Shown one piece after another: positions 1-63,578 of a DNA stretch of 64,000 bases. Each line of letters begins with the position of its first letter. Positions within the stretch are counted from its first letter, which is position 1. Source of the DNA: Gracilimonas sediminicola (GTDB lineage: Bacteria; Bacteroidota; Rhodothermia; Balneolales; Balneolaceae). Under the pieces are notes generated by a model. It saw only the letters and a list, made by a program, of their open reading frames with translations. It had not been told where the DNA came from and did no database searches. The position numbers and the translations under genes were made by a program. The stretch is from assembly GCF_024320785.1 (NCBI RefSeq), contig NZ_JANDBC010000001.1, forward strand, positions 1,184,001 to 1,248,000, given 5' to 3'.

Positions 1-2537
1 GGGGATACCTCACTTTGCAAAACAACGACCGGGAACATGCATTCAGCGATTCGGATGTACGGCTGCTAAGTACCCTTGCCAACAGTATGAGTGTAGCCCT
101 GGAAAATGCACGTCTTTTTAACGAAACCGAACAGCGAAATGCAGAGCTTGCCGTTATAAATAGTGTACAACAGGGCCTTGTGGCTGAAATGGACATGCAA
201 GGTATCTATGATTTAGTGGGTTCCCGAATTAGAGATCTTTTTGATGCCCAGGTAACCGGTGTGGTTACTTTTAATCACGAAGTGAAGAAAGAACTATTTA
301 AGTATGTATTTGAAGACGGGGAAAGGCTTTACCCAAAATCAAGATTATACGACAGGCTTAGAGCTAAAATTATTGAAGATAAATCGACGCTGCTGATTAA
401 TGAGAATGCAGCAGCTGAAATGGCAAGGATAAATAAGAAACCATTCAAGCCTGTACCCGGAACAAGATTGGCAAAGTCTGCAGTATATGTACCAATGATT
501 GTGGGTGATACCGTTCGCGGGTATGTGACCCTTCAAAACCTGGACCGGGAGAATGCTTTCTCTTCTTCCGACGTAAGTTTACTTACCACCCTGGTTAACA
601 GTATGACGGTGGCCCTCGAAAATGCCCGCCTTTTTAATGAAACCAACCGCCTGCTGGCTGAAACCGAACAGCGTAATGCCGAGCTGGCCGTAATCAACAG
701 TGTGCAGGAAGGTCTGGTGCGGGAAATGGACATGCAGGCCATTTACAGCCTGGTTGGCAACCGTATCTGCGAGGTTCTGAATACCCAAACAATGCTCATC
801 CGTACTTTCGACCATGACAAAGAAATTGAGACCTGGGAGTACGCCGTTGAAAATGGGGAACGTCTTTATCTTGAACCACGGCCATTTATCTGGGCAAATA
901 AACACCTCATCAAAACCAAAGAAGCATTACTTATTAATGAAGATTATGTAGAAACGGCCAAAAAATACGGAGACACCGATCATGGTGTTAGTAAGGGATT
1001 GCCTCCCAAGGCAGCCATCTTTGTACCAATGATCGTGGGCGATAAAGTAATGGGCTCCATCAGTCTTCAGAATGTAGAAAAGGAGCACGCGTTTACGGAA
1101 TCAGATGTTCGGCTGCTTACCACCCTCACCAACAGTATGAGTGTAGCGCTTGAAAATGCCCGATTGTTTAACGAAACCACCCGGCTATTGGGGGAAACCG
1201 AGCAGCGAGCCGCCGAACTTCAAACCGTGAACAGTATCAGTAAGGCGATTGTATCGCAGTTGGAAGTGGATGCACTTTTTAAACTGGTTGGGGAAAAGAT
1301 GCGGGAAACTTTTAAAGCAGATATTGTTTACCTGGCTATTCACGATAAGAAATCAGACCTGCTTCATTTTCCATATTACTATGGAGATAAATCAGAATCG
1401 CGGCCTTTTGGGAATGGAATCACCGAAAAAATCATCACCAGTAAAGAGCCACTGCTGGTGAACCACGACCTCGATGAAACTTATGATAAAATTAAGGCTG
1501 AGAAGAAAGGGGAAATGGTGGAGTCTTACCTTGGAGTTCCCATCCTGGCCGGTAAAAAATCACTGGGGGTAATCAGCGTTCAAAGTAAGGAACAGGAAAA
1601 CCGATTCAGTGAAACTGACCTTCGTTTGCTCTCCACTATTGCAGCCAACGTGGGTATTGCCATTCAAAATGCTGAGGCCTATCAAAAACTGCAGTCGGCA
1701 TTAAATGAACTGCGAGCGGCCCAGGAGCAATTGGTTCAGCAGGAAAAACTGGCTTCGCTTGGGCAACTCACCGCCGGTATCGCTCATGAAATCAAAAACC
1801 CGCTGAATTTTGTGAATAATTTTTCGGAGTTAAGTGTGGAGTTGATTGAAGAGACGAAGGAGGAGCTGTCAGCTCTCAGTGATCAGCTTTCAGCTGAGGA
1901 TAAAGGGCGTATTCTGGGGGCTCATGAAATACTGAAAGACATTGACATGAATCTCCGTAAAATTCACGAACATGGCTCACGGGCCGACTCCATCGTTAAA
2001 TCCATGCTGGAACACAGCCGTGGAGGTTCCGGAAAGATGGAGCCTACCGATTTGAATGCATTGGTCAAAGAATTTGTAAACCTCTCCTTCCACGGTATGA
2101 GGGCAAGCAAGAATCCCATAAATGTAGCTATGGATTTTGAGTTGGATGATTCGGTCGGAGAAGTACCGTTGATTGCCGAAGATTTCAGCCGGGTGATCGT
2201 GAACCTGTGCAACAATGCCTTTGATGCGATGAGGGAGAAATTAAACTCCAATGACCAAGCACCAAATTCCAAAGATTACAGGGCAAAACTTATCGTACGA
2301 ACTTCTTTAGAAAATGGAAGGATTTTGCTTCAGATTGAAGACAACGGGCCGGGAATTCCGGAGGAGATGAAAAGTAAGATTATGCAGCCGTTTTTTACAA
2401 CCAAGAAAGGAACCGAAGGCACCGGTTTAGGACTGAGTATTACCAATGATGTCATCAAAGCGCATGGCGGGGAATTAGACTTATCTACCATTCCTGGTAA
2501 CGGAACTACTTTCTCGATTAAAATTCCACAAGCTTAA
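1..2537 (+). CDS. Multi-GAF sensor histidine kinase (5' end outside window)
   Basis: Cytoplasmic sensor kinase that autophosphorylates on His and probably feeds the receivers downstream. The reading frame is open to base 1, and the first residues (GYLTLQN) match the end of the GAF repeats seen later, so the TTG at 15 is not the real start. Counting residues from base 15, there is the tail of one GAF domain, then three GAF domains (about 55-210, 230-395, 410-560), a short coiled coil, a DHp domain with H591 in the AGIAHEIKNP motif, and a HATPase_c with N-box (NLCNNAFDAM), G1 (EDNGPGIP) and G2 (GTGLGLSI) motifs. No membrane segment is visible. The DHp loop (about 617-628) and the N-box loop contain short repeat-like insertions. 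The next kinase starts 6 bases after the stop, so the genes are probably co-transcribed. Family is certain; ligand unknown. Confidence 0.95.
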   Translation, partial: GYLTLQNNDREHAFSDSDVRLLSTLANSMSVALENARLFNETEQRNAELAVINSVQQGLVAEMDMQGIYDLVGSRIRDLFDAQVTGVVTFNHEVKKELFKYVFEDGERLYPKSRLYDRLRAKIIEDKSTLLINENAAAEMARINKKPFKPVPGTRLAKSAVYVPMIVGDTVRGYVTLQNLDRENAFSSSDVSLLTTLVNSMTVALENARLFNETNRLLAETEQRNAELAVINSVQEGLVREMDMQAIYSLVGNRICEVLNTQTMLIRTFDHDKEIETWEYAVENGERLYLEPRPFIWANKHLIKTKEALLINEDYVETAKKYGDTDHGVSKGLPPKAAIFVPMIVGDKVMGSISLQNVEKEHAFTESDVRLLTTLTNSMSVALENARLFNETTRLLGETEQRAAELQTVNSISKAIVSQLEVDALFKLVGEKMRETFKADIVYLAIHDKKSDLLHFPYYYGDKSESRPFGNGITEKIITSKEPLLVNHDLDETYDKIKAEKKGEMVESYLGVPILAGKKSLGVISVQSKEQENRFSETDLRLLSTIAANVGIAIQNAEAYQKLQSALNELRAAQEQLVQQEKLASLGQLTAGIAHEIKNPLNFVNNFSELSVELIEETKEELSALSDQLSAEDKGRILGAHEILKDIDMNLRKIHEHGSRADSIVKSMLEHSRGGSGKMEPTDLNALVKEFVNLSFHGMRASKNPINVAMDFELDDSVGEVPLIAEDFSRVIVNLCNNAFDAMREKLNSNDQAPNSKDYRAKLIVRTSLENGRILLQIEDNGPGIPEEMKSKIMQPFFTTKKGTEGTGLGLSITNDVIKAHGGELDLSTIPGNGTTFSIKIPQA

Positions 2538-2543
2538 TCACCA

Positions 2544-5051
2544 ATGGATAAGCAGAAAGAGATAGCGTTAAATGAGGCTTATGACAAACTCATGGCCATC
2601 AGTACCAATCAAATTCCCGTTGATGGACTTGAAGAACTTGTCGATCCGGAAATCATGGGTTATGGGACCACTGTTGATGAAGAAGTACACGACCTTGAGG
2701 GGTACATTCAGCTTATTAAAGCTCAGGAAGAACAGGCCCGTGCTGCCGGCCTCCATTTTAATTTTGACCGCACCCTCGTTCATAAAAGAATCTCGGCAGA
2801 AGGTGATATCGCTGTATTCGTAGAACACATTATTGCCACTGTACAGTCAGATCAAATTGAGAATCAGTTTACATTCCGCTTTAGCGCAGTTATGGAGTTT
2901 AAACAAGGAAGTTGGAAACTCATTCATTGGCATGGTTCCATACCTGGTGATACTGAAAACGATACCTGGCATGTTGAGGAGTGGGAACGGGAAAAAGAAA
3001 GGCTTGAGAAATTAGTAGCTGAGCAAACCACCGATCTTCTCCAAAAAAACAAAGAATTGGAGATTGAAGCAGCTTCTGAACGGATGCGTGCTGTAGCTAT
3101 GGGGATGCAAAAACCTGATGACATCATGCTGGTTATTTCAACGCTCCGTAAATGCCTGGCTGATTTACAAGTTGATAGTCTCGCTGTGGTAATTCTTATC
3201 GACAATGAAGATGGTACGATGACACAATGGGATATAACTGAGATTGAAAAAGGCGAGCTAAAACTATTTCAGATTCACATGGACCTAAAATTGGTGCCTA
3301 CCATAGCCGGTTATTATGAGAATGCGGAAAAACAATCTTTTGTGATATATGAGATCACGGGTGAAAAGTTAAATAAGTTGGCACAGGAGCTGCAAATAAT
3401 TGACAAACAAAATGGACAAATTTTTCAACAAGCAATTAAGGATGGGGTCATTTCTAAGTTTTTTCCTGTCGTAAAAAAATTCTCCCATGGGTTTTTGGAA
3501 ATTGATTTCAATAAAAAGCCTCCGCAAGAGATAGAGACAATTGCTACAAAAATGGGCAATGCATTCGAACAGTCCTATATCCGATTCCTTGACCTTCAAA
3601 AAGCCGAACAACAGACCTACGAATCTAAAGTGGAAGCCAGTCTGGAACGGGTTAGGGGCATAGCGGCTGCCATGAATCATAGTGACGACCTGAGGCAGAT
3701 TGCAGAGGCTATGTTCAAAGAAATGGAGATGCTTAAGATTAATCCCCTTCGATATGGCTTAGGTATGATTAACGGTGAAACCAAAGAAGCCGAAATTTGG
3801 GCATCTAATGTTGATGACGGAAGTTACCTGGATATGCTGGGAACCCTTTCCCTCACCTGGCACCCTATGCTCCAAAAAGTATTGGATGCCTGGGAAGCAC
3901 AGCATCAAGAAGTGATCTACGAGCTGAAAGGCAAAGAGCTTAGTGACTATTACCAAAAGGTAGGTCCCATTAACCCCAACATCCCCAACCTTGAAGAACT
4001 TCAGGACCCGGATACTGACATTGAACAGTTTGCAAGTTTCTTTCCCTTTAAGTCAGGGGCATTATATGCATTCACTAATGGTGAGCCGGGCGAAGATGGT
4101 AAATCAATTTTAAAACGATTCGCCAATGTTTTTGAGCAAGCTCACATTCGTTACGATGACCTTCAAATAGCAGAAAAACAAGCACGACTCATCCGCGAAG
4201 AACGTGACCGCCTGGAAATTGCCCTGAAGGAATTAGAGGCTACCCAAGACCAGCTTGTTCAGCAGGAAAAACTGGCTTCCCTTGGACAACTCACCGCCGG
4301 CATTGCCCACGAAATCAAAAACCCGCTGAATTTCGTGAATAATTTTTCGGAGCTGAGTGTGGAGTTGATAGACGAAGCAAGAGAGGAGATCAAGGAGATT
4401 AATTCAAAATTTAACATTCAAAATTTAGAATTATCAGATCTCCTTGACGACATCGAAACTAATCTCCGAAAAATTCATGAACACGGTACGCGGGCTGATT
4501 CTATCGTAAAATCGATGCTGGAGCACAGCCGGGGCGGTTCGGGAAAAATGGAGCCTACGGATTTGAATGGGTTAGTGAAGGAATTTGTGAACCTCTCTTT
4601 CCACGGCATGCGGGCCGGAAAGAATCCCATTAATGTAGATATGGAGTTTGACTTGGATGATTCGATTGGAGATGTACCTCTTATAGCTGAAGATTTTAGC
4701 CGGGTGATCATCAATTTGTGTAATAATGCTTTTGATGCGATGAGGGAAAAATTAAATTCCAATGATCAAGCACCAAATTCCAAAGATTACAAGCCAAAGC
4801 TGACAGTTAGGACCTACAAGAAGAATCAAGCAACTTTCATAGAAATTGAGGATAATGGTCCGGGTATTTCACCAGATATAAAGGAAAAGATTCTTCAGCC
4901 TTTTTTCACGACAAAGAAGGGCACCGAAGGTACGGGGTTGGGGTTAAGCATTACCAACGACATTATTAAAGCACACGGTGGTTTTTTAGAAGTTTCCACT
5001 AACCAACATGAGGGTACATGTCTCACCATTAAATTATCCCCGGGGGGATAA
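2544..5051 (+). CDS. Sensor histidine kinase with N-terminal SnoaL-like domain and GAF-like regions
   Basis: Soluble histidine kinase of 835 residues. Residues about 10-140 resemble a SnoaL/NTF2-like fold (ending in a WKLIHWHGS strand motif), an uncommon input module for a kinase. A coiled coil (150-185) leads to two GAF-like regions (about 185-365 and 385-545), each followed by an alpha-helical linker, then a DHp domain with H589 (GIAHEIKNPL) and a complete HATPase_c (N-box NLCNNAF, G1 EDNGPGI, G2 GTGLGLS). The C-terminal 250 residues are almost the same as those of the kinases before and after it. It starts 6 bases after the previous stop with no clear Shine-Dalgarno sequence, suggesting translational coupling. 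The DHp loop contains an in-frame repeat (4401-4433). The SnoaL call is from fold-like pattern, not from a search. Confidence 0.93.
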   Translation: MDKQKEIALNEAYDKLMAISTNQIPVDGLEELVDPEIMGYGTTVDEEVHDLEGYIQLIKAQEEQARAAGLHFNFDRTLVHKRISAEGDIAVFVEHIIATVQSDQIENQFTFRFSAVMEFKQGSWKLIHWHGSIPGDTENDTWHVEEWEREKERLEKLVAEQTTDLLQKNKELEIEAASERMRAVAMGMQKPDDIMLVISTLRKCLADLQVDSLAVVILIDNEDGTMTQWDITEIEKGELKLFQIHMDLKLVPTIAGYYENAEKQSFVIYEITGEKLNKLAQELQIIDKQNGQIFQQAIKDGVISKFFPVVKKFSHGFLEIDFNKKPPQEIETIATKMGNAFEQSYIRFLDLQKAEQQTYESKVEASLERVRGIAAAMNHSDDLRQIAEAMFKEMEMLKINPLRYGLGMINGETKEAEIWASNVDDGSYLDMLGTLSLTWHPMLQKVLDAWEAQHQEVIYELKGKELSDYYQKVGPINPNIPNLEELQDPDTDIEQFASFFPFKSGALYAFTNGEPGEDGKSILKRFANVFEQAHIRYDDLQIAEKQARLIREERDRLEIALKELEATQDQLVQQEKLASLGQLTAGIAHEIKNPLNFVNNFSELSVELIDEAREEIKEINSKFNIQNLELSDLLDDIETNLRKIHEHGTRADSIVKSMLEHSRGGSGKMEPTDLNGLVKEFVNLSFHGMRAGKNPINVDMEFDLDDSIGDVPLIAEDFSRVIINLCNNAFDAMREKLNSNDQAPNSKDYKPKLTVRTYKKNQATFIEIEDNGPGISPDIKEKILQPFFTTKKGTEGTGLGLSITNDIIKAHGGFLEVSTNQHEGTCLTIKLSPGG

Positions 5052-5054
5052 ACG

Positions 5055-8000
5055 ATGAGCAAAAAAAACATACTATCTTTTAAAACCGGCATTATTTGCC
5101 TGACTGCTTTTGCAGGGCTGACAACTTCTGTTCACGCTCAAACCGAACAGGAAATAAAACCCACGCTTTTACAAAGTGAAGCTCCTTCCCTGCGCTTTGA
5201 GCATACCGGGCTCAGCGATGGAATGAATCAGGCCAGTGCAAATACCATCATGCAGGATAGTAAGGGGTTTCTGTGGATTGCTACCCAGGGAGGCCTCCAT
5301 CGGTACGATGGTTATGAATTTAAAGTGTACAAGCAAACCCCTTTCGATACCACTTCCCTTTCTGAGAACTGGGTTTGGGGGATGGATGAATCAGCAAACG
5401 GGGATATTTGGGTTACAACAGAAGGCGGTGGATTAAACAAACTGAATCAGGCTACAGGAAAATTCACGAAGTATGTTCACGATCCGAATGACTCTACCAG
5501 TATTTCCAGCGACCGTGCTTTTATGCCTTTTGAAGACAGCCGGGGCAACCTGTGGGTAGGCACTTTTGGAAGTGGGTTAAATAGAATGCCCCCCGGGCAA
5601 GACGGAAAGTTTATTCGGTATGAGCACGACCACGATGACCCAACAACCATTACAAGCCATGCCGTTTATTGGATGAAAGAGGATTCTGAGGGTTTTCTGT
5701 GGGCTGGAGGCAATAACGGTATTTCAAGAATAAATTTAGATACCTATGAAATCACCCGCTTTTTGTTTGATATAGATGGCCGTGAGTTTTATGGAGCCCC
5801 TCAGAATGTTTTGGATCAATATCTCTCACCCGATATACCCGGCGCTTTGTGGCTGGCAACCGGGAACGGGCTGGTATTTCTGGATAGCAAAACCGGTGAC
5901 TTTGAGCGATATCTGATTGAACCCAATGAAGGAGAGAACGTCAACCCGCTTAACTTTCTTCATCAGGTTGTGCCTGATCCAGAGAATCCAAATGTATTAT
6001 GGGTGGCCGGCCCTGGAACAGGTGTTGCCCGCTTCGACATCGTTGACCGTGAATTCACTTCTTATCGTAACAATCAGCGAGACCCAAATAGCCTCAGCGA
6101 TAATTTTGCTACATCGATGTATGCCGACCGTTCCGGCACCATCTGGGTGGGTACAGCAACAAGAGGTCTTTCCGCCTTTAATCCCGGCGCGGTAAATTTT
6201 ACTCACCTGAAGAATAACCCTGATGATGACCAAACCATCTCCCCGGGTATTGTATGGGGTGTTTTTGAAGATAGCGAAGGAACTTTGTGGGTAGGGACAG
6301 ATATCGGGTCTGCGGGTGATATCCTCACTGAATTCGACATCAACACCGGACAAGTCTCTCATTATACTTCTAACCCTGATGATACCACATCATTAATATT
6401 TGGATCCATACGGGTATTCCATGAAGATGCTAACGGTCGTTTTTGGATAGGCACCAGCGGTGGACTGAGTTTATTCGATCGCACAACTAAAAAATCTACT
6501 TATTTCCGCCACCCGCGGATTGATGGGAACCAGGGGCGAAACAGCCTTTTTGCGATCGTACCAACCGCAACTGATGAGGACGTATTCTGGATTGGCAGCA
6601 TTGGCGGGCTCGACCGCTTTAATTCAATCACCGGAGAGTATGAGCATATCCCCCTTCCTCAGGAAGAATTAAAAACCGATTTCGGTCCTCCCGTTTTGAG
6701 TTTACATATAGCTGAAGACAGCATGTTGTGGGCAGGTACTACTTTAGGTTTACTCCAAATTACTCCCGATGGAATTGCAACTGTAGCTTCTACCTATAAA
6801 CCTACCGATTCGACAACCATCAACAACAGTCAAATACAAAGCATAACCCAGCTGAATAATGATCCGGGTACACTTTGGCTGGCTACCTCAAACGGTGGGC
6901 TGAACCGCTTTGATATACAAACCGGCAAGGCCACACATTTTACCGAGGAACAAGGTCTTTCCAATAATTCGCTATATGGCTTGTTGGTGGATAATAACAA
7001 CACCCTTTGGATGAGCTCCAATAAAGGCATCTCCAATTTTGACCCCGCCACTGAGACGTTTAGAAATTACGGGCTCGATGACGGGCTTATGGCACTGGAA
7101 TACTCCCAAAACGGATATTTTAAGGGAAATAATGGGGTTATGTATTTTGGCAGTGGCGAAGGTGTTACGGCTTTTGTTCCGGAACAGCTTCATGTAAATG
7201 AAATCCCACCTCAGGTAGTACTTTCCGATTTTAAAGTATTCAACAAACCCGTAGTGCCCGGACCTGATTCTCCGCTCAAGGATGCACTCAGTAATACTCA
7301 AAAAATTACTCTTCCCTATCACCAAAATGAAGTAACCTTTGACTATGTAGCCCTGCATTATGCCAACCCCAAAATGAATACCTACTCTTATCAACTGGAG
7401 GGATTTGACCCGGACTGGATTGATGCCGGCAACAAACGTTCAGCAACCTACACCAATCTCCCCGAAGGGGAATTCACTTTTAAAGTGAAAGCAGCGAATG
7501 CGGATGGAGTCTGGAATCATGAAGGAGCCTCAATTGGATTAACCATTTTACCTCCGTGGTACAGAACCTGGTGGGCCTACTCTTTAGGACTTGGAATGCT
7601 GGGCTTCATGGTTTTTGGGGTTGACCGTTTTCAGCGCAGCCGTATTTCTAAAAAGGAACAAGAACGACAGGCACTTCGTGAAGCTGAGCTCCGGGCCGAG
7701 GCTGAAAACAAGCGCCGGTCCGATACCGAGCAGCTGAGCCAGATCGGACGGGCCATTACATCCACTCTTTCGGTAAACAAAATCATTGATACCGTTTACG
7801 AGAATGTGAACGCCCTGATGGATGCTTCCATTTTTGGGGTCGGAATTTATAATGAAGAAAGAAACCGACTCGAGTTCCCGGCTACCAAGGAAAAGGGAAA
7901 GATGTTATCTCCTTTTGTAAACAACCTGGACGAAGAAGACCGCCTGGCGGTTTTCTGCTTCAAGAACAAAGAGGAAATTATTGTCGGGGATTACGCCAAC

Positions 8001-9029
8001 GAGCATACCAAGTATGTTAAAACCTATCAGGCGCCTATTGAAGGGGAAGAGTCGAAGTCTATACTCTACCTGCCGCTGGTTCAGCAAGACCGGGTGATCG
8101 GCGTTATCACCACTCAAAGCTTCAAGAAAGATGCATACACCGCTTATCATGTGAACCTGTTGAGAAACCTGGCCACTTATGCTGCCATTGCCCTCGACAA
8201 TGCTTCAGCCTATCGAAAACTGAATGCAACCTTGAGTGAGTTAAAAGACATGCAGCAACAGCTCATCCAGCAGGAAAAACTGGCTTCACTTGGACAGCTT
8301 ACCGCCGGTATTGCCCATGAGATTAAGAATCCGCTGAATTTCGTGAATAACTTTTCTGACTTGAATGTGGAACTGCTGGAGGAAGCTCGTGAGCTGGCCG
8401 GTGATAATACCGACTTAAAGGATCTTTTAGCCGATATTGAAGCAAACCTCAATAAAATTCATGAGCACGGACAAAGGGCCGATTCTATCGTGAAATCGAT
8501 GTTACAGCACTCGCGTGGAGGCAGCGGCAGAAAAGAACCGACTCAGATAAATACGGTAGTCAGAGAGTATGTGAACCTGACTTTCCACGGTATGAGAGCC
8601 GGCAAAGAGCCCATCAATTCTGACATCATATTTGACCTGGATGAAAGTATAGATCCAATTCCATTGATAGCCGAAGACTTCAGTCGCGTAATCGTAAACC
8701 TGTGCAACAATGCTTTTGATGCGATGCGGGAAAAGCTGAAGTCCAAAGACCAAGCACCAAATTCTAAAGAATACAAAGCCAAGCTTACGGTGAGGACTTC
8801 ATCAGAAAGTGGAAACGTTTTACTTCAAATTGAAGATAACGGGCCGGGAATACCGGACGACATGAGAGACAAAATTATGCAGCCTTTCTTCACTACAAAG
8901 AAAGGAACGGAAGGTACCGGACTCGGACTCAGCATTACCAATGATATCATCAAAGCACACGGTGGCACCATTCAGGTAGATTCTGAAAAAGGAAAGGGCA
9001 CAATATTTACGATCACCTTAAACAAATAG
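5055..9029 (+). CDS. Two-component regulator propeller sensor kinase (Reg_prop, Y_Y_Y, GAF, HisKA, HATPase)
   Basis: Membrane sensor kinase of 1324 residues. A signal peptide (1-29, ending HAQ) is followed by about 14 repeats of the two-component-regulator propeller type with DSxGxLWVGT-like strands (about 45-720), a Y_Y_Y domain (735-830) and one membrane helix (about 838-858), placing the propeller in the periplasm. Inside the cell come a coiled coil, a GAF domain (905-1055), a DHp domain with H1088 and a HATPase_c with all boxes. Unlike the hybrid propeller kinases of Bacteroides (HTCS) there is no receiver or AraC domain; a stand-alone receiver starts 4 bases downstream and may replace it. 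In Bacteroides such propellers often sense carbohydrates, but no glycan-use genes are nearby, so the ligand stays unknown. RBS GGGGGA overlaps the previous stop. Confidence 0.95.
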   Translation: MSKKNILSFKTGIICLTAFAGLTTSVHAQTEQEIKPTLLQSEAPSLRFEHTGLSDGMNQASANTIMQDSKGFLWIATQGGLHRYDGYEFKVYKQTPFDTTSLSENWVWGMDESANGDIWVTTEGGGLNKLNQATGKFTKYVHDPNDSTSISSDRAFMPFEDSRGNLWVGTFGSGLNRMPPGQDGKFIRYEHDHDDPTTITSHAVYWMKEDSEGFLWAGGNNGISRINLDTYEITRFLFDIDGREFYGAPQNVLDQYLSPDIPGALWLATGNGLVFLDSKTGDFERYLIEPNEGENVNPLNFLHQVVPDPENPNVLWVAGPGTGVARFDIVDREFTSYRNNQRDPNSLSDNFATSMYADRSGTIWVGTATRGLSAFNPGAVNFTHLKNNPDDDQTISPGIVWGVFEDSEGTLWVGTDIGSAGDILTEFDINTGQVSHYTSNPDDTTSLIFGSIRVFHEDANGRFWIGTSGGLSLFDRTTKKSTYFRHPRIDGNQGRNSLFAIVPTATDEDVFWIGSIGGLDRFNSITGEYEHIPLPQEELKTDFGPPVLSLHIAEDSMLWAGTTLGLLQITPDGIATVASTYKPTDSTTINNSQIQSITQLNNDPGTLWLATSNGGLNRFDIQTGKATHFTEEQGLSNNSLYGLLVDNNNTLWMSSNKGISNFDPATETFRNYGLDDGLMALEYSQNGYFKGNNGVMYFGSGEGVTAFVPEQLHVNEIPPQVVLSDFKVFNKPVVPGPDSPLKDALSNTQKITLPYHQNEVTFDYVALHYANPKMNTYSYQLEGFDPDWIDAGNKRSATYTNLPEGEFTFKVKAANADGVWNHEGASIGLTILPPWYRTWWAYSLGLGMLGFMVFGVDRFQRSRISKKEQERQALREAELRAEAENKRRSDTEQLSQIGRAITSTLSVNKIIDTVYENVNALMDASIFGVGIYNEERNRLEFPATKEKGKMLSPFVNNLDEEDRLAVFCFKNKEEIIVGDYANEHTKYVKTYQAPIEGEESKSILYLPLVQQDRVIGVITTQSFKKDAYTAYHVNLLRNLATYAAIALDNASAYRKLNATLSELKDMQQQLIQQEKLASLGQLTAGIAHEIKNPLNFVNNFSDLNVELLEEARELAGDNTDLKDLLADIEANLNKIHEHGQRADSIVKSMLQHSRGGSGRKEPTQINTVVREYVNLTFHGMRAGKEPINSDIIFDLDESIDPIPLIAEDFSRVIVNLCNNAFDAMREKLKSKDQAPNSKEYKAKLTVRTSSESGNVLLQIEDNGPGIPDDMRDKIMQPFFTTKKGTEGTGLGLSITNDIIKAHGGTIQVDSEKGKGTIFTITLNK

Positions 9030-9033
9030 AATA

Positions 9034-9423
9034 ATGAGCGAACCCATGAAATTTTTAGTGGTGGATGATGAAAAAGACGTTGAAATGCTGTTTCGTCAAA
9101 AATTCAGAAAAGAAATACGGAGCAATGCCCTGGAACTGGAATTTGCCTTTTCCGGCGATGAAGCCATCGAGATTTTGAGAAGTAATCACCCCCCCGAGGT
9201 TGTGTATATATTCTCTGATATCAACATGCCGGGGATGTCGGGACTGGAGCTTCTGGAAAAGGTGAAAACTGATTTCCCGCAAATAAAGGTAAGCATGATA
9301 TCTGCCTATGGCGACCAGCATAATTACGACAAAGCCATGGAATCGGGCGCAAAAGCATTTTTTACCAAGCCCATCGATTTTGAAGAACTCAGAGAAGAAA
9401 TCAACCAATTGATTCACCAATAG
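9034..9423 (+). CDS. Stand-alone response-regulator receiver
   Basis: Single-domain receiver (CheY-like) of 129 residues. The acidic pair D11-D12, phosphoacceptor D62 (FSDINMPGMSG), S90 in the TT/S position (MISAYGD) and K112 (FFTKPID) are all present, so it should be phosphorylated. It has no output domain, so it may act as a phosphate shuttle or bind a partner protein. It lies 4 bases after the propeller kinase and 22 bases before the receiver-phosphatase, with which it shares the SAYGD and TKPIDF motifs; the two look like duplicates. This suggests that the three kinases upstream signal through this receiver, the next one, or both. Confidence 0.95.
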   Translation: MSEPMKFLVVDDEKDVEMLFRQKFRKEIRSNALELEFAFSGDEAIEILRSNHPPEVVYIFSDINMPGMSGLELLEKVKTDFPQIKVSMISAYGDQHNYDKAMESGAKAFFTKPIDFEELREEINQLIHQ

Positions 9424-15926: not shown

Positions 15927-18692
15927 ATGCTGGTCATGAAAAAGTTTCAAAAACTTTTCCAACTTAATGCTGTAAATATTGCCTTCATTTATCTGGTGAC
16001 AGGTATATTGTGGATTCTTTTCTCAGACCAGTTGCTAGCCTTCATTATTACCGATATTGAGGAAATGGCGCGTTATAGCACCTTTAAAGGCATACTATAC
16101 GTAATTGTTACAGCTATTTTACTCTATCTTCTTGTTGATTTTAGCAACAAACGCATCAAATCTGCTACAAAAAGTGTGGATGAAGCTTTGGATTCAGTGA
16201 AAATCGCAACCTGGAGTATCAACCTTGAAACGAACAGAAATATTACCTCCAGATACCACTACAAACTATTTGGACTTAAAGAGAGACCAAAGAAATGGAA
16301 CGTTCAGGATTTCTACGACTCCATCCATCCTGATGACAAAGATCGTGTAGAACAGGCTTTTATTGAAGCGATTGAAACTAAAACCCCTTACAAAGCAGAG
16401 TACCGTATCATTTGGCCGGACGGTACGGTGCGGTGGATGAAAAGCATGGGTAATGTTCAGGAAAATGATCAGGGAGAAACAACCTCGATATCCGGCATTA
16501 TACAGGACATTACGGAACAGGTGGACCTTGAAGAAAAAAATAAGCGCAGACAAGAGCTGTTTGAGCGTATTTTCGAACAAATTCCGGTGATGATAGATAT
16601 TTACGATCCGGAGGTGAATCAAATCAGGGTAAATAAAGCTTTTGAGGAAACCCTGGGATGGACTAATGAAGAAATCAGTGAAATTGACTTGCTGGCGGCC
16701 TGCTATCCTGATCCTGAATTAAAGAAAAAGGCCCTCAAGGTGATGGCTGAAGCAGACGGTGAATGGCATACTTTTGAGGTGCTTGATAAAGCCGGGAATA
16801 CCCGCATCCAGGAATGGTCAAATATTAAACTCTCGGATGATACCACCATTGGAATCGGGCTGGATGTGACGGATATCAAACAAAAAGAACAAAAATTAGA
16901 GTTGGTCAACCGGCGGTTCAGAAGAGCAGAAAAAATTGGTAAGATTGGGCACATCGAACGGGATTTAAAAACCGGAGAAATCACTATATCTCAAAACGTA
17001 TATAATTTAGCCGGTTTAGAGAAGAGCAGTGAACCTCTGGATTTTGAAGGAATTTTAAACCTCATCCACCCAGAAGATTTTGATCGATTTTTAGAAGTTC
17101 GTGAGGAAGCCAATATAAAAGGGCACTTAAATGATGTTTTTAGAATTGTTAAGCACGGTACTAATCAAACCATCTACATTCATTTGGTAAGTGAGATCTA
17201 CTTCGACTCGGATGGAAACCCTGATTTTGTTGCTTCGGTTGTACAGGACGTTACCCAGGTTAAGGAGTACGAAAGGTATATTGAAGAGCAGAAAGAACTT
17301 TTTGAGAATACGATTGAAAACCTGCCTATTGGAGTAGCCGTAAATCACATCGATTCCGGGAAGGTTTCTTTAATGAACCAAAGGTTCTCCAAAATCTATG
17401 GCTGGCCCAAAAACGTCATCACCGATTTAGATACTTTTTTTGAGAAAGCCTATCAGGATGAAGAATACCGCAACCGCATAAAAGAAATGGTGCTGGAGGA
17501 CATTGGCTCCAAAAAACCTGAGCGGATGCAATGGAAAGGAATCAAAATTACAACTCAGACTGGGGAGGAACGAATCATCAACGCTAAAAACATCCCGGTT
17601 TATGATCAAAACCTGATGATTTCTACGGTGGTGGATGTAACAGCACAAGTGGAAGCAGAGAAGAGGTTGGCAGAATCTGAACACAATTACCGGCTGCTTT
17701 TTCAGAAAAGCCCCCAGCCCATGTTAATTTTTAATCCGGACGACCTATCCATCATTGAGGTGAATGAATCTGCTGTGCGGCATTACGGTTATTCACGGGA
17801 AGAATTTTATACCAAAACGATATTAGATATCCGTCCTGATGAGGATAAAGAAGAAGCAAAGCAGGTTATTAAGAACGACCGCGAGACCACTATGTCTGAG
17901 CCTTTTGAATCCCGGCATATCAAAAAGAATGGTGAAATCATCAATGTGCGTGTTACCGGTTCATCAATTACCTATTTCGGTAAAAACTACCGCCTGGTGC
18001 TGGTGAATGATATCACCGAGCAGAAGCAAGCGGAGGAGATGGTGCTGGCCTCACTTGTAGAAGGCGAAAATAAAGAGCGGGCTCGTATTGCTCAGGAACT
18101 TCATGACGGACTTGGCCAATACCTTGCAGCGGCCAATATGAACCTGGATTCCGTGCAAGGTCAAATTTCTAAACTGGATGAACGCAAACAGGATCAGTTT
18201 AATAAAGGGTTGAATTTACTGAAGCATGCGGTTTCAGAAACGGCCCAGATTTCCCGCAACCTGATGCCTCGTGTAGTTGATGATTACGGGCTGGCTTTAG
18301 CCATCGAGGCCCTCGTTGATAATTACAGTACCACCAACGATTTGGACATCAGCTACTACCAAAACATCAGGGATCTCGAATTGCCCAGAGAAGTACAATT
18401 TAATCTCTATCGCATTGCACAGGAGGCACTTTCTAATGCGGTAAAATACTCTAAGGCTTCACAGATTAATGTTCAGCTCATTAAAGATGAGCTTGATTTG
18501 ATCCTTACGATTGATGATAATGGCATTGGCTTTGATACATCTGATCCGGACTTTACACCGGGATTGGGGTTACAAACTATTAAAACGAGAACAGGGGCGC
18601 TTGGCGGCCACTTTGAATTCGATTCAAAACCCGGCAAGGGGACATTAATCAGCGCAATCGTTCCTATCAACAAACATACAAATGCCCAATAA
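15927..18692 (+). CDS. Membrane PAS-array sensor histidine kinase, NarL type (HisKA_3)
   Basis: Sensor kinase of 921 residues. Two membrane helices (about 14-36 and 55-75) are followed by five PAS domains (about 95-215, 220-335, 340-455, 460-580, 590-710), some with PAC motifs, and a HisKA_3 domain with H726 (IAQELHDGLGQ) and a HATPase_c (ALSNAVKYS, DDNGIGF, GLGLQTI). The frame is open from 15792, but the ATG there lies inside a terminator hairpin and the first 45 residues are not protein-like; ATG 15927 (AAGGGG 3 bases before) or ATG 15936 directly before the membrane segment is more likely. Its stop touches the ATG of a LuxR-type regulator, clearly the cognate partner. Signal unknown. Confidence 0.92.
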   Translation: MLVMKKFQKLFQLNAVNIAFIYLVTGILWILFSDQLLAFIITDIEEMARYSTFKGILYVIVTAILLYLLVDFSNKRIKSATKSVDEALDSVKIATWSINLETNRNITSRYHYKLFGLKERPKKWNVQDFYDSIHPDDKDRVEQAFIEAIETKTPYKAEYRIIWPDGTVRWMKSMGNVQENDQGETTSISGIIQDITEQVDLEEKNKRRQELFERIFEQIPVMIDIYDPEVNQIRVNKAFEETLGWTNEEISEIDLLAACYPDPELKKKALKVMAEADGEWHTFEVLDKAGNTRIQEWSNIKLSDDTTIGIGLDVTDIKQKEQKLELVNRRFRRAEKIGKIGHIERDLKTGEITISQNVYNLAGLEKSSEPLDFEGILNLIHPEDFDRFLEVREEANIKGHLNDVFRIVKHGTNQTIYIHLVSEIYFDSDGNPDFVASVVQDVTQVKEYERYIEEQKELFENTIENLPIGVAVNHIDSGKVSLMNQRFSKIYGWPKNVITDLDTFFEKAYQDEEYRNRIKEMVLEDIGSKKPERMQWKGIKITTQTGEERIINAKNIPVYDQNLMISTVVDVTAQVEAEKRLAESEHNYRLLFQKSPQPMLIFNPDDLSIIEVNESAVRHYGYSREEFYTKTILDIRPDEDKEEAKQVIKNDRETTMSEPFESRHIKKNGEIINVRVTGSSITYFGKNYRLVLVNDITEQKQAEEMVLASLVEGENKERARIAQELHDGLGQYLAAANMNLDSVQGQISKLDERKQDQFNKGLNLLKHAVSETAQISRNLMPRVVDDYGLALAIEALVDNYSTTNDLDISYYQNIRDLELPREVQFNLYRIAQEALSNAVKYSKASQINVQLIKDELDLILTIDDNGIGFDTSDPDFTPGLGLQTIKTRTGALGGHFEFDSKPGKGTLISAIVPINKHTNAQ

Positions 18693-26917: not shown

Positions 26918-28759
26918 TTATTTCTCAATAAACTGAAACAGCTTCTGCTCAAGGTCAGCCGGGTTAAAAGGTTTGGTCACAAAGTCGTTCATGCCCGAAG
27001 CATACACTTTCTCTCGTACTTCTTTAAGTGCGGCAGCTGTGAGGGCAATGATAGGCGTATTTCGCTTGTACGGATCATCCAGTTTTCGAATATGCTCGGA
27101 GGCTTCGTACCCATCCATGGTTGGCATCTGGAGGTCCATCAGCACCACATCGTAATTATGTTCTTTAATGGCTTCTACAGCTTCTTTGCCATTATCTACA
27201 ACCGTCATATCCACATTCCAGCGCTCGAGAAACCTCAACATTACCTTTTGGTTCACCAGGTTATCTTCAGCAAGCAGAACACGGAGGCCTCTTAAACTTT
27301 CGGCATTATCTTCACTTTTGGTTATTGCCTTGGCTTCGTCTGTTGAGGATCCTTTTTCAAAAGTTAACTCTACGAAGAAAGTGCTTCCTTCTCCTTCATC
27401 GCTTTCAACGGAAATAGTACCACCCTGAAGCTCTGTAAGTTGTTTACTGATGGTAAGCCCAAGCCCCGTACCGCCAAACAAGCGTTTTGTATTTTGGCTG
27501 GCCTGTGTAAAGCTTTCAAAAATGGTATTTACTCGATCTTCTTCAATACCAATACCCGTATCTGAAATGGTAAACTGTAGTCGTACTGAGTCATCATCAC
27601 CAACCTGAAGAGCATTTACTGATAACCTCACTTCTCCCTCTTCAGTAAACTTCAGCGCATTACTTACCAGGTTATTCAGGATCTGTGTGAGTCGCGCCGG
27701 ATCGCCCACTAATATATTGGGGATCCCTTCCCCTATCTCTGTGTTAAGCTCAATGCCTTTATTTTTGGCCGTTATTTTGAAGCTCTCTACAATGACATTT
27801 ACAAGTTTATTCAGCTCAAATTCAATGTTTTCGAATTCAATTTTTCCGGCTTCAATTTTAGAGAAATCAAGTACGTCATCAATCAGCGAAAGCAGGGTTT
27901 TCCCGGAAAAGTCCAGAATATTGATCGGTTCAATTTGATCTTCGCGCGGACTGTCTTGCTTCAGCAGGTGAGTCATCCCCAAAATAGCATTCATCGGGGT
28001 TCTGATCTCGTGACTCATGGTAGCCAAAAATTCCGATTTGGCTTTTGTGCTTTTTGCGAGTTGCTCGGTGGCCACTTCAAGCTGCTCAATATAGGTTTCC
28101 AGCTTTTCCTGTTTCAGGCTCAACTCCTGATTCAATTCCTGCTCTTTTTGTAATAGCTCCAGCGTCTGGTGTTCGGCGTCTTCTTTAAACTGCGAAAAGG
28201 TATTAAAAATTAACCAGGTAGTTACGAAAGAGCCCGTCAAAACACTCCATCTCACCAGCGAGAAGCTGCTTTCAGAAATACTGATTCTCTCGAAGATGAT
28301 ATAATCCAGGATGAAGTACGAAAGGATTGACAACAGAATACCCATATTGCGCAGGTGCACCTGGGTATTATCAAAAAGAAGGATGGAAAGCCCCATGGCG
28401 GGTATAAAAAATGCCTGAATCATGGCATCGCCGCCAAATACGGAACTGAGAATGATAATACCGACATCGGCATAAGCAATGAGCAGAATCTTAGCGGCTT
28501 TCACAAATCCCTGCCTGGCCAGCAGAGGGATTAATAAAAAGGCGATGGCTTCAGACAGAAAAAACCACGTCAGGGATACAGATTCGTTGATTTGAAAGGC
28601 AATGAGGAAGAGAATGGAAACGCCGGCTAAAAAGAAAGAAACCGAATTCAGGACGGTCATACCCGCCTTTTTGCCAACAACCTCGTTTTCCGACCTCAGG
28701 TCTTTACCCAGAGCGATATCAGAAATGCCGGTGAGAGAAAATTTTGAGCTCATATTCAT
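26918..28759 (-). CDS. Membrane hybrid sensor histidine kinase (HisKA, HATPase, receiver)
   Basis: Hybrid kinase of 613 residues. About six membrane helices (35-205) form the sensor without a large outer domain. A coiled coil leads to HisKA with H250 (FLATMSHEIRTPMNAILG), an intact HATPase_c (NLVSNALKFTEEG, ISDTGIGI, GTGLGLTISK) and a C-terminal receiver (about 490-613) with the phosphoacceptor Asp of VVLMDLQMPTMDG and TKPFNP. No Hpt domain or separate response regulator is next to it, so the phosphorelay partner must be encoded elsewhere. RBS GGGGAT lies 6 bases before the ATG. This resembles the RpfC/BarA style of hybrid kinase. Confidence 0.95.
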   Translation of the reverse strand: MNMSSKFSLTGISDIALGKDLRSENEVVGKKAGMTVLNSVSFFLAGVSILFLIAFQINESVSLTWFFLSEAIAFLLIPLLARQGFVKAAKILLIAYADVGIIILSSVFGGDAMIQAFFIPAMGLSILLFDNTQVHLRNMGILLSILSYFILDYIIFERISISESSFSLVRWSVLTGSFVTTWLIFNTFSQFKEDAEHQTLELLQKEQELNQELSLKQEKLETYIEQLEVATEQLAKSTKAKSEFLATMSHEIRTPMNAILGMTHLLKQDSPREDQIEPINILDFSGKTLLSLIDDVLDFSKIEAGKIEFENIEFELNKLVNVIVESFKITAKNKGIELNTEIGEGIPNILVGDPARLTQILNNLVSNALKFTEEGEVRLSVNALQVGDDDSVRLQFTISDTGIGIEEDRVNTIFESFTQASQNTKRLFGGTGLGLTISKQLTELQGGTISVESDEGEGSTFFVELTFEKGSSTDEAKAITKSEDNAESLRGLRVLLAEDNLVNQKVMLRFLERWNVDMTVVDNGKEAVEAIKEHNYDVVLMDLQMPTMDGYEASEHIRKLDDPYKRNTPIIALTAAALKEVREKVYASGMNDFVTKPFNPADLEQKLFQFIEK

Positions 28760-32900: not shown

Positions 32901-34307
32901 TTGGAAAATTCAGACTTCAAAAAAGCCCTTCATTTTGATGAGTTTCCGGCCATTTCTACCGAGAAATGGGAAGCCGTAATTGAGAAAGACCTTAAAGGAA
33001 AAGATTATAAAGATGTGCTTCGTTGGAAATCCGGCGAAGGGGTCAATCCTCTTCCATTTTACCGGGAAGAAAACGTACGTGATCTTTCTCTTTCACCTGA
33101 GGCCGTTGCAGCCCGCGGCTCTTGGAATGTTATGGAGCCCGTTGAAGGTTCTTCGATAGCGGAAGCAAATAAAGAAGCCCTGCATGCACTCGAGAATGGA
33201 GCTTCCGGATTATATTTCTGTCCGGCCAAAAACTACCTGCAATCCCGCAGCGATCTGGAGAACTTGTTAAAGGATATTCAAATCGAACTTATCGCACTGA
33301 GATTTGGCAGTGCAATTTCTTCTCCTGAGGTATCTGTTTGGCTAAAGGAAATATGTAATGAACGGAAACTCAATACAGAAGAATTATCGGCAGGCTTTAA
33401 TTTCGACCCGATGGCGAATGGAGCTTTAACCGGAAAGCTGGCATCAAAAGCTGAGATTGAGAACACGGTTAATGCCTTTGATGAATCATTTTCATTTTGT
33501 GCCATCGATAGTTCAGTTTTTGCGAACGCTGGTGCGACTATTATTCAGCAGTTGGCCTTTTCTCTGGCAGCGGGTAATGAATATCTCGGGCTTGACTCAA
33601 AGCTGGCTGGCAACATGCATTTTAATTTTGCTACCGGCCCCAATTATTTCCTTGAGATCGCAAAGTTCAGAGCTTTTAAACGAACGTGGAGCCAGGTGTT
33701 AGGCGAATATGGAGTGGACAATAATCGATCCTCCATCCATGCTGAAACCAATTTTTGGAATAAATCCCAATCGGATGCCCACAACAATATGCTTCGCACC
33801 ACAACCGAAGCCATGTCGGCAGCAATCGGGGGTTGCGATACCATCACGGTTCATCGCTATGATGAGCACTTTTCCGATGACTCCGGCTTTGCCTCCCGTA
33901 TTGCCCGGAATATCCAGCTTATCCTTCAGGAAGAGGCTTACCTGGATAAAGTGGCCGATCCCGGTGCCGGCTCCTATTATATAGAAGTGCTTACCGATAG
34001 CATAGCCCAAAAAAGCTGGGAGTTATTCCAGGATATTGAAGCCAAAGGTGGCTTTTACGAGGCGCTTAAATCACGATACATACAAGAGTTGGTAGCTGCT
34101 TCACAAAAAGAGAAAATTGAAGCTTACCAACAAAAAGAGAAAGTTTTGGTAGGGGTGAATAAATATAAGCCCGACGAAAAGATTCAAAATTTAGAATTTA
34201 GAATTCAAAATTTTGCTGGCTTTGACCAAGATATGAATGAATGTATTACGATCGACAAAATATCGCTCTTGAATATTGAAGCTGAACTTAAAAACGGGGA
34301 AGGATAA
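32901..34307 (+). CDS. mutA: Methylmalonyl-CoA mutase small subunit
   Basis: Small (non-catalytic) subunit of B12-dependent methylmalonyl-CoA mutase, 468 residues, pairing with MutB encoded next. The TIM-barrel part matches the family ([70 protein letters not shown]). It stops at about residue 468, whereas classical MutA proteins of about 615-640 residues carry a degenerate cobalamin-binding-like C-terminal domain, which is absent. The tail carries an AT-rich repeat (34183-34215) encoding [11 protein letters not shown]. The start codon is TTG with no obvious RBS. The stop overlaps the mutB ATG (TAATG), so the two subunits are coupled. Confidence 0.93.
34183..34215 (+). repeat. AT-rich ATTCAAAATT/TTAGAATT repeat inside mutA
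   Basis: Alternating ATTCAAAATT and TTTAGAATT units within the coding frame, encoding an [11 protein letters not shown] peptide. The same kind of unit occurs at 4401-4433 in a kinase gene. It looks like an intergenic repeat that has entered the reading frame. Confidence 0.6.
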
Positions 34308-37579: not shown

Positions 37580-37649
37580 CGTTATTCGGTTACTATCCCC
37601 ATTCACAATCAACGATTAACGGCTAACGATTACCATTTCCCGAATAACG
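37580..37649. repeat. Short intergenic repeats with inverted ends
   Basis: CGTTATTCGG (37580-37589) and its exact complement CCGAATAACG (37640-37649) flank several CGATTAACGG/CTAACGATTA-like units between convergent meaB and cdaA. It could act as a weak terminator; no GC-rich hairpin with T-run is seen. Confidence 0.55.
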
Positions 37650-56988: not shown

Positions 56989-57603
56989 TTACAAACCGGA
57001 CTTCACTCTATTCCAGTCTTCGATGGTATCTACATCGTTTAATTCTTTCAGCGTGGTGTGATTTAACCCAATATCCCGAATTTTTTCAACTGTTTTTTGA
57101 AATACAGAGCCCGTACTCCATTCGATTTCTTCAAAAACTTCCGGGTGGTAGCTTCGCATACCTAACAGGTAGTAGCCCCCGTCTTCTGCCGGACCGACTA
57201 CAAATTCATGCTCCTCCAGCTCCTGAAAGGCCTGCTGAATAATATCAGAAGTAAGCTCTGCACAATCACTGCCAATAATCACCACTTTTTGGAAAGACTC
57301 ATCTAAAAAAGATTGCTGAAAAGCATTCGACATTCTCTTTCCCAGGTTTTCCCCTGACTGAAGCTGCTTTGTAAAATCACCACCTTCCCAAATGTCCTTT
57401 TCCGCGATGAACCGGGAATACCATACTTCTTTGGCCACTTCTAAATTACGGGTTTGCTCAAAGGTCCAGCCCAGCAATTTCTGATATACCTCAAGTGCCT
57501 GCTCATCTCCGATTGTAGCTGCCAGCCGGGTTTTTGTTTTCCCGGCCTCCTCATTCTTCACGAAGATGATCAGCTTTTCCCTCGTTCTTCCTTCCTTGTT
57601 CAA
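56989..57603 (-). CDS. TIGR04282-family glycosyltransferase-like protein of the arsenosugar cluster
   Basis: Nucleotidyltransferase-fold protein of about 204 residues. Signatures EKLIIFVKNEEAGKTKTRLA, VVIIGSDCAELTSDIIQQAF and VGPAEDGGYYLLGM are those of the TIGR04282 family that accompanies ArsS. The frame is open from 57666, which would overlap arsS by 46 bases and add residues encoded by a GAACAAGGAA-type repeat. TTG 57603 with AAGGA 4 bases upstream is the likely start, so the repeat may supply both the RBS and the start codon. Role: probably activating or transferring a sugar in the pathway. Confidence 0.85.
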   Translation of the reverse strand: MNKEGRTREKLIIFVKNEEAGKTKTRLAATIGDEQALEVYQKLLGWTFEQTRNLEVAKEVWYSRFIAEKDIWEGGDFTKQLQSGENLGKRMSNAFQQSFLDESFQKVVIIGSDCAELTSDIIQQAFQELEEHEFVVGPAEDGGYYLLGMRSYHPEVFEEIEWSTGSVFQKTVEKIRDIGLNHTTLKELNDVDTIEDWNRVKSGL

Positions 57604-57624
57604 TGTTCCTTGTTGGGTGTTCAA
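57588..57624 (-). repeat. AACAAGGAA-type repeat at the start of the TIGR04282 gene
   Basis: On the minus strand, units of the form AACACCCAACAAGGAACATT and GAACAAGGAAGGAA run across the junction between the arsS stop and the next coding sequence. Such units are common as intergenic repeats in bacteria of this branch; here they lie in an open frame. Confidence 0.5.
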
Positions 57625-63483: not shown

Positions 63484-63560
63484 AGTCAGCGTGCTTACTT
63501 GTTTAGAAGTAAGAGCAACTAAAACTGTTATCCTTACAGATTAAATTCTAAAATCTGTAA

Positions 63561-63578
63561 TCAAAAATCGATCATTCG
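63561..63578. repeat. Right flanking repeat of the four-helix-bundle gene
   Basis: TCAAAAATCGATCATTCG; its complement equals the two halves of the element on the left side of the gene, so the gene is bracketed by inverted copies. Confidence 0.55.

Follow-up and report, generated by a model that had tools for sequence, protein, structure and literature searches.

The analysed window, a stretch of 64,000 nucleotides from Gracilimonas sediminicola (NCBI RefSeq assembly GCF_024320785.1, contig NZ_JANDBC010000001.1, positions 1,184,001 to 1,248,000 of the forward strand), begins with three adjacent genes for predicted histidine kinases (kinases 1, 2 and 3), and the question raised by this locus is how short repeats of kinds that also occur outside genes came to be coded, in frame, within loops of the conserved kinase core. 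Our analysis favours, as probable rather than certain, an account in which small dispersed repeats have been captured in frame, and have turned over, at two turns that tolerate them. The two sites would be the tip of the DHp hairpin and, in the CA domain, the loop that leads from the N-box helix to the strand behind it.

The initial annotation was right about the DHp loops of the window's kinases. That of kinase 1 (1864-1896) is coded by the heptads AGCTGTC.AGCTCTC.AGTGATC.AGCTTTC.AGCTG (coded stretch ELSALSDQLSAEDKG), that of kinase 2 (4401-4433, the FNIQNLEL region) by AATTCAA.AATTTAA.CATTCAA.AATTTAG.AATTA, and that of kinase 3, ELAGDNTDLKDLL, carries no heptads. Its notion of a tolerant hinge is supported as well, the repeats being accommodated at the turn of the DHp hairpin, but it was too narrow in confining them to this hinge: CCAANNN heptads, which it had overlooked, occupy a second loop behind the N-box helix (NAFDAMR) in all three kinases, and repeats are found in both loops throughout the family. 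Arrays were scored in windows of 21 comparisons at period 7, with at least 15 matches required unless 14 is stated. The window's kinase arrays are degenerate (14-15/21); at 14/21 or more, the 64-kb window holds nine period-7 clusters, against one to four for each of periods 4, 5, 8, 10, 11, 13 and 14, and four of the nine lie in kinase loops (DHp loop of kinase 1 with 14 matches and of kinase 2 with 15, CA loops of kinases 1 and 3 with 14 each). Since 124 of 2,000 codon shuffles of the three cores attained 14 matches at some position and 27 attained 15, each window array taken singly is just mildly unlikely and merely suggestive, and it is the kinase family that carries the argument.

Likeness to kinase 1 yielded 208 relatives, the best 80 of which were kept (77 distinct loci; not a random sample), the nearest named records among these best 80 being Balneola and metagenome-assembled genomes (MAGs) of Balneolaceae. 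A match at E 1e-60 was found in 21 of 57 genomes, the window's own counted, and these kinases are multi-copy, with up to 20 matches in genome G019. A motif search of the fetched loci, whose pattern misses cut or divergent copies, gave 119 and later 136 distinct kinase cores. Among the 119, period-7 arrays occurred in 27 DHp loops and 35 CA loops and in none of 34,986 mid-core and 11,662 C-terminal windows; nine rows also carried a period-7 signal just upstream of the DHp loop, overlapping its edge. No window of these 119 reached the cut-off at periods 4, 8, 10, 11 or 13 and a single one did at period 5, while the signal at period 14 (twice 7) fell in the same two loops. Among the 136 cores, arrays were present in 29 DHp and 40 CA loops, so distributed that 52 kinases had one in at least one loop, 17 in both and 84 in neither; with at least 14/21 the counts rose to 40 and 50, and still none of 48,824 mid-core and C-terminal windows qualified.

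The loop arrays, roughly 28-60 bases long, are as varied as they are confined. Eight unit families, grouped by hand, were recognised (AGCTNTC, AATTCAA, CCAANNN, AAAAGTG, GAAGACG, AAGTACG, CAAGACN with GCGAGAA, and AATTCAG), and they are spread over Balneolales, Algoriphagus, Indibacter, Belliella, Aquiflexum and others. On a tree of the 136 cores with the loops removed, which was a quick one computed without a mixture model, the minimum number of changes in repeat state was 19 for the DHp loop and 30 for the CA loop (17 and 26 when only presence was counted).

The structural model of the kinase 1 core (mean predicted local distance difference test score, pLDDT, 76.9; predicted template modelling score, pTM, 0.59; 42 sequences) places helices at residues 2-53 and 58-99, and the DHp array, at residues 48-59, therefore spans the hairpin tip in this model; the CA array (about residues 175-185) lies in the loop between a helix (152-175) and a strand (189-197). 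Because a 7-base unit shifts the frame with each copy, three units make a seven-residue peptide repeat in which all three frames are shown. In 29 of 35 loop unit types, the strand that is read encodes the more hydrophilic peptide, and a stop occurs in the consensus unit of 13 of 69 loop arrays, as compared to 49% of the strands of 73 arrays outside open reading frames (ORFs). Note that stops are scarce on the antisense strand of these units too (15/69), so the stop filter acts on the kind of unit and not on its orientation.

Outside the kinases, five genome samples (1,988 kb, 7-13% of each genome, partly picked for holding kinases) were scanned at a cut-off of 20/28, with ORFs taken mechanically as open frames of at least 120 or at least 100 residues. 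Kinase ORFs held 21 arrays in 106 kb (Aquiflexum 13, Indibacter 6, G019 2), all other ORFs four in about 1,612 kb, and the remaining DNA 73 in about 270 kb; per kilobase, kinase ORFs thus exceed other ORFs roughly 80-fold. The four arrays in non-kinase ORFs comprise one in a mutA-like ORF of the window, one matching it in a genome of the same genus (G007) and two in Aquiflexum ORFs. The window's copy is an in-frame AATTTAG/TTCAAAA array at 34175-34217, near the C-terminus of an ORF at 32901-34307 that reads as methylmalonyl-CoA-mutase-like from its sequence, and its match in G007 lies in L208 at 18423-18463. Inverted neighbours are also frequent among the heptad arrays outside genes and are foldable as long hairpins (L031 14871-14967, L024 13570-13665, L028 12860-13042).

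In the genome of the window, as the initial annotation had supposed, units of the same kinds as in the kinases stand outside genes (AGCTATC, AATTTAA-type, CCAAGCACCAAATTCCAA); their absence elsewhere in the genome, which would have spoken against an intergenic origin, is thus not what we found. A 464-kb sample holds 18 arrays outside ORFs, all unit types pooled, and these are dispersed. AATTTAA-type arrays are several, the AGCTNTC and CCAANNN types occupy few places, a single AGCTATC array lies outside ORFs (C1:23652), and the three copies of CCAAGCACCAAATTCCAA are that of kinase 1 and two in gaps between ORFs. When 30 of the 54 ATPase loci of this genome were scanned, the kinase 2 array was the sole coding one. 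Elsewhere, TCAGCTNTCAGCTNTCAGC is present in 14 of the 57 genomes (reversed control: four matches in one genome), a DHp loop of Aquiflexum has 21 bases identical to an array that lies outside ORFs in that genome, and four of the eight matches to the three-unit CAAGAC motif in the whole Aquiflexum genome are on contigs other than that of the kinases. Exact counts of loop 10-13-mers in the own-genome sample, and of 14-mers against a pool of flanks, were also tried and did not clearly separate loops from core, given the degeneracy of the arrays and the largely coding nature of the flanks.

Small palindromes of 15-30 bases occupy the same two loops. Their peptides in the relatives include CAERSRSA (between NAFDA and MR), PAGKAG/PTGQAG, VETQCIASLQ, LQGFE..GGL, PLEGG, PLSRG and LSRESG, and seven patterns, chosen after being seen, account for 21 of the 136 kinases. 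In an unbiased scan for stems of at least 9 bases, five sites were found in the core (0.07/kb), five in the DHp loop (0.37/kb) and ten in the CA loop (1.23/kb); with stems of at least 7 the densities were 0.80, 2.01 and 2.58 per kb, respectively. As an example, one Indibacter kinase has a 21-base palindrome nested in an AAGTAC array, and its paralogue has the array without the palindrome. In Aquiflexum, the nested palindrome belongs to a dispersed family with 16 genome-wide matches when 3 mismatches are allowed (none for the control); two or more of these matches are in kinases, and one, in L332, lies in a heptad-like stretch without an ORF of at least 80 residues. In G064, exact GCTGAGCGNAGTCGAAG has 12 copies, four of them in kinases, and five of the other eight in no ORF of at least 80 residues. 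It should be noticed that a dispersed palindrome copy also stands at a third kinase site, near the C-terminus, in L328 (G059:C55 ~72161; VKSLPTDKAGEEGKG), and that CAERSRSA-type elements lie 24 bases apart in the CA loops of two kinases of G064 (L308, L309).

Comparison of orthologues suggests how such loops may change. Genomes of the same genus retain the loop peptide ELSALSDQLSAEDK of kinase 1 (L035 and L055 of G007, L037 of G004), ELSAVSNQLSAEDK occurs in L036 of G003, also of this genus, and similar loop peptides occur in a farther MAG (L067). Loop peptides shared with distant orthologues would have contradicted the insertion proposed in the initial annotation; sharing was found within the genus, and beyond it only a similar form, that of L067. 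Since the kinase 1 loop is common to the genus, two independent landings is too strong a description of the window: the two unit families do differ, but fresh and separate landings are unsupported. Between the window and G007, kinase 1 is 93-97% identical in the blocks just before the CA loop, the CA loop differs (CCAANNN in one, AGCTGAC in the other), and identity is lower behind it, one block excepted. Kinase 2 is 80-95% identical in most blocks ahead of the CA loop (the DHp loop left aside), 86% directly behind it and 95-100% from there on, and kinase 3 is 93-100% identical throughout, with the same CA repeat in both. Two of the three pairs, in which identity shifts at the CA loop, would suggest the loops as breakpoints, and close pairs differ most, on average, across the CA loop (0.143 versus 0.084-0.110); we do not claim such breakpoints, since the segment distances show no clear trace of them, their correlations being similar whether or not a loop lies between the segments. 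Moreover, kinase 2 of G007 has a DHp loop of the kinase 1 type, and its part from DHp to the middle is nearer kinase 1 than in the window, so that this stretch looks converted from kinase 1. Because the G007 loop sits in a converted-looking stretch, the DHp loop of the window's kinase 2 may be the older state. Taken together, the comparisons of window and G007 kinases suggest that paralogue exchange also seems to contribute to loop change. Insulation between paralogues was considered but is not supported; paralogues can share loops (kinases 1 and 2 of G007, and pairs in Indibacter and Belliella).

We therefore propose capture and turnover, in which small repeats dispersed through the genome, heptanucleotide arrays for the most part together with some small palindromes, would find landing sites in two loops that tolerate them. 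Copies would pass from outside genes into the loops, and would then be exchanged or replaced, presumably through recombination, the partners being other repeat copies or the paralogous kinases. The survivors would be those copies that keep the frame, are free of stops and encode a polar turn; since each of the two sites is a turn that lies clear of the conserved boxes, such copies would survive, nearly neutral for catalysis. In-place slippage may contribute alongside capture.

Several observations weigh against this proposal. The kinases were selected by likeness to kinase 1 (the best 80 of 208), no repeat-change event was caught between strains, and the correlations of segment distances are alike across the DHp loop (0.34), across the CA loop (0.44) and within the middle of the core (0.38). 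At 20/28, no array is scored in the kinases of either the window's genome or G007, kinase 2 of the window reaching 19/28. In the five samples, arrays outside ORFs of the own genome were the best match for just 11 of 25 loop segments, with one tie (window's genome 4/4, Aquiflexum 5/9 and the tie, Indibacter 2/5, G007 0/3, G019 0/4), which we read as mixed support. The exact three-unit CAAGAC motif is confined in Indibacter to the kinase cluster (all four overlapping matches) and has one match in G062 as compared to four in the reversed control. The nested Indibacter palindrome has no second exact copy in its genome and just two more at up to 3 mismatches, and exact GCTGAGCGNAGTCGAAG is confined to kinases both in Aquiflexum (sole copy) and in G063 (both copies, by position).

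Among the alternatives, polymerase slippage in place, by which heptads would have grown from chance seeds within the loops without any copying from intergenic DNA, fares best, and yet we consider it unlikely as a full explanation. In most genomes, repeats with a 7-base unit outnumber every other class, and slippage has been put forward as their origin (Mrazek 2007, as reported in PMC4679880). The own-genome sample is clearly enriched for one period only, 7 with its multiple 14, and in Indibacter the exact three-unit motif of the kinases does not occur outside the kinase cluster. However, the two loops and the DNA outside genes have unit families in common, nested palindromes are not a product of slippage, and the near-absence of arrays from other ORFs is left unexplained, unless these loops just happen to be the places that tolerate arrays best.

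It is improbable that the inserts are selected signalling parts, kept for altering hairpin length or packing and thereby cis or trans autophosphorylation or the pairing of paralogues. The CA loop, which is affected at least as much, lies presumably away from the dimer interface in these kinases and counts against such a role, as do the loops shared by paralogues of one genome (kinases 1 and 2 of G007, one Indibacter pair, one Belliella pair) and the fact that in 84 of the 136 kinases neither loop has an array above the cut-off; such sharing and such array-free kinases speak against strong selection for particular inserts. In its favour, the modelled insert lies across the tip of the hairpin and the kinases are multi-copy, and since a small DHp loop is reported to decide between cis and trans phosphorylation (Ashenberg 2013, as cited in PMC4734776), an effect of the inserts on signalling is possible.

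Coincidence with common descent, in which polar turn peptides with chance-periodic codons were inherited by duplication, is very improbable: it would accommodate the mild improbability of single window arrays (124/2,000 shuffles) and the kinase 1 loop common to orthologues, but not the 0 of 48,824 core windows, a period of 7 bases that is no codon multiple, or the many unit families with a period-7 excess confined to the loops across kinases with unlike peptides.

Beyond capture and turnover itself, a wider picture is a speculative one to which we give low credence: the loops may be lasting collection sites for small repeats, with heptads as landing pads and families exchanged between intergenic DNA and paralogues, so that turn length and core surface would vary by species and may tune or insulate signalling.

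Regarding gene content, the three kinases (Table 1) have closely alike HisKA-HATPase_c cores (73-76% identity to kinase 1) and different input parts, and in all three a Pfam domain search found HisKA and HATPase_c above the cut-off, from which they are classed as histidine kinases with predicted autophosphorylation activity. The window's genome (G000; 3.57 Mb, 6 contigs) has eight matches at E 1e-10, of which only kinases 1-3 are close. Other weak period-7 clusters of the window (14-15/21) lie at 28037-28064, 37599-37638, 57580-57621 and 63534-63571.

Table 1. Kinase genes, their two loops and the adjoining gene in the window.
Feature	Position	Strand	Content
Kinase 1	15..2537	+	GAF domains, HisKA, HATPase_c; open frame extends upstream, beyond the window
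Kinase 1, DHp hairpin turn	1864..1896	+	AGCTNTC heptads, peptide ELSALSDQLSA; model residues 48-59, turn 54-57
Kinase 1, CA loop behind N-box helix	2246..2275	+	CCAANNN heptads, peptide NSNDQAPNSKD
Kinase 2	2544..5051	+	SnoaL-like domain, HisKA, HATPase_c
Kinase 2, DHp hairpin turn	4398..4436	+	AATTCAA/AATTTAA heptads, peptide INSKFNIQNLEL
Kinase 2, CA loop	4759..4786	+	CCAANNN heptads, peptide NSNDQAPNSK; absent from window clusters of at least 14/21
Kinase 3	5055..9029	+	Reg_prop repeats, Y_Y_Y, GAF, HisKA, HATPase_c
Kinase 3, DHp hairpin turn	8391..8429	+	Without heptads, ELAGDNTDLKDLL
Kinase 3, CA loop	8743..8770	+	CCAANNN heptads, peptide KDQAPNSK
Stand-alone receiver-like protein, downstream of kinase 3	9034..9423	+	Translation; family read from sequence

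On this reading, these kinases offer an unusually clear case of genes absorbing spacer DNA without being broken. What sets them apart from Rickettsia, where in-frame uptake of dispersed repeats is known, is that a single protein family would have taken up repeats many times, at two fixed sites and from many repeat families, with repeat-free relatives as controls; in the open-licence literature searched, no report was found on kinase loops of this kind, with many repeat families accumulated in a pair of loops of a single kinase family. The set provides a natural series for studying the movement of small repeats, the uptake of non-coding DNA by proteins, and the relation of DHp hairpin length to cis or trans phosphorylation.

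Known systems are approached from several sides. In the P6b stem of the Nostoc tRNA-Leu intron, heptanucleotide repeats serve as the arms of a hairpin; they resemble AATTCAA and TGAGT-type units, but this is an RNA intron stem and not a protein. The fold of the kinase 1 core model matches the sensor kinases ZraS (9jfj, E 1.2e-16) and HK853 (6rgz, E 4.1e-14), from which the present kinases differ in having two turns filled with repeat-like peptide. Both in-frame repeats in Rickettsia and heptamer repeats in cyanobacteria, Xanthomonas and others are already known. Rickettsia palindromic elements (RPE) are described in PMC10969869 as dispersed repeats read in frame within otherwise ordinary proteins, and the kinase repeats, which are also dispersed and sit in frame inside conserved proteins at tolerated places, share this behaviour; they differ from RPE in falling short of the size of about 150 bp, being mostly 7-base arrays with palindromes of 15-30 bases, and in keeping to two loops of one kinase family. 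The heptanucleotide tandem repeats described in PMC4692102 and PMC4679880 (those of cyanobacteria, the Xanthomonas and Nostoc heptamers, and TAACTGA, also reported there from five Bacteroidetes) are mainly intergenic. The arrays studied here likewise have a 7-base unit in several head-to-tail copies, as in repeats of the short tandemly repeated repetitive (STRR) type, whereas here such units lie inside the catalytic core of a protein.
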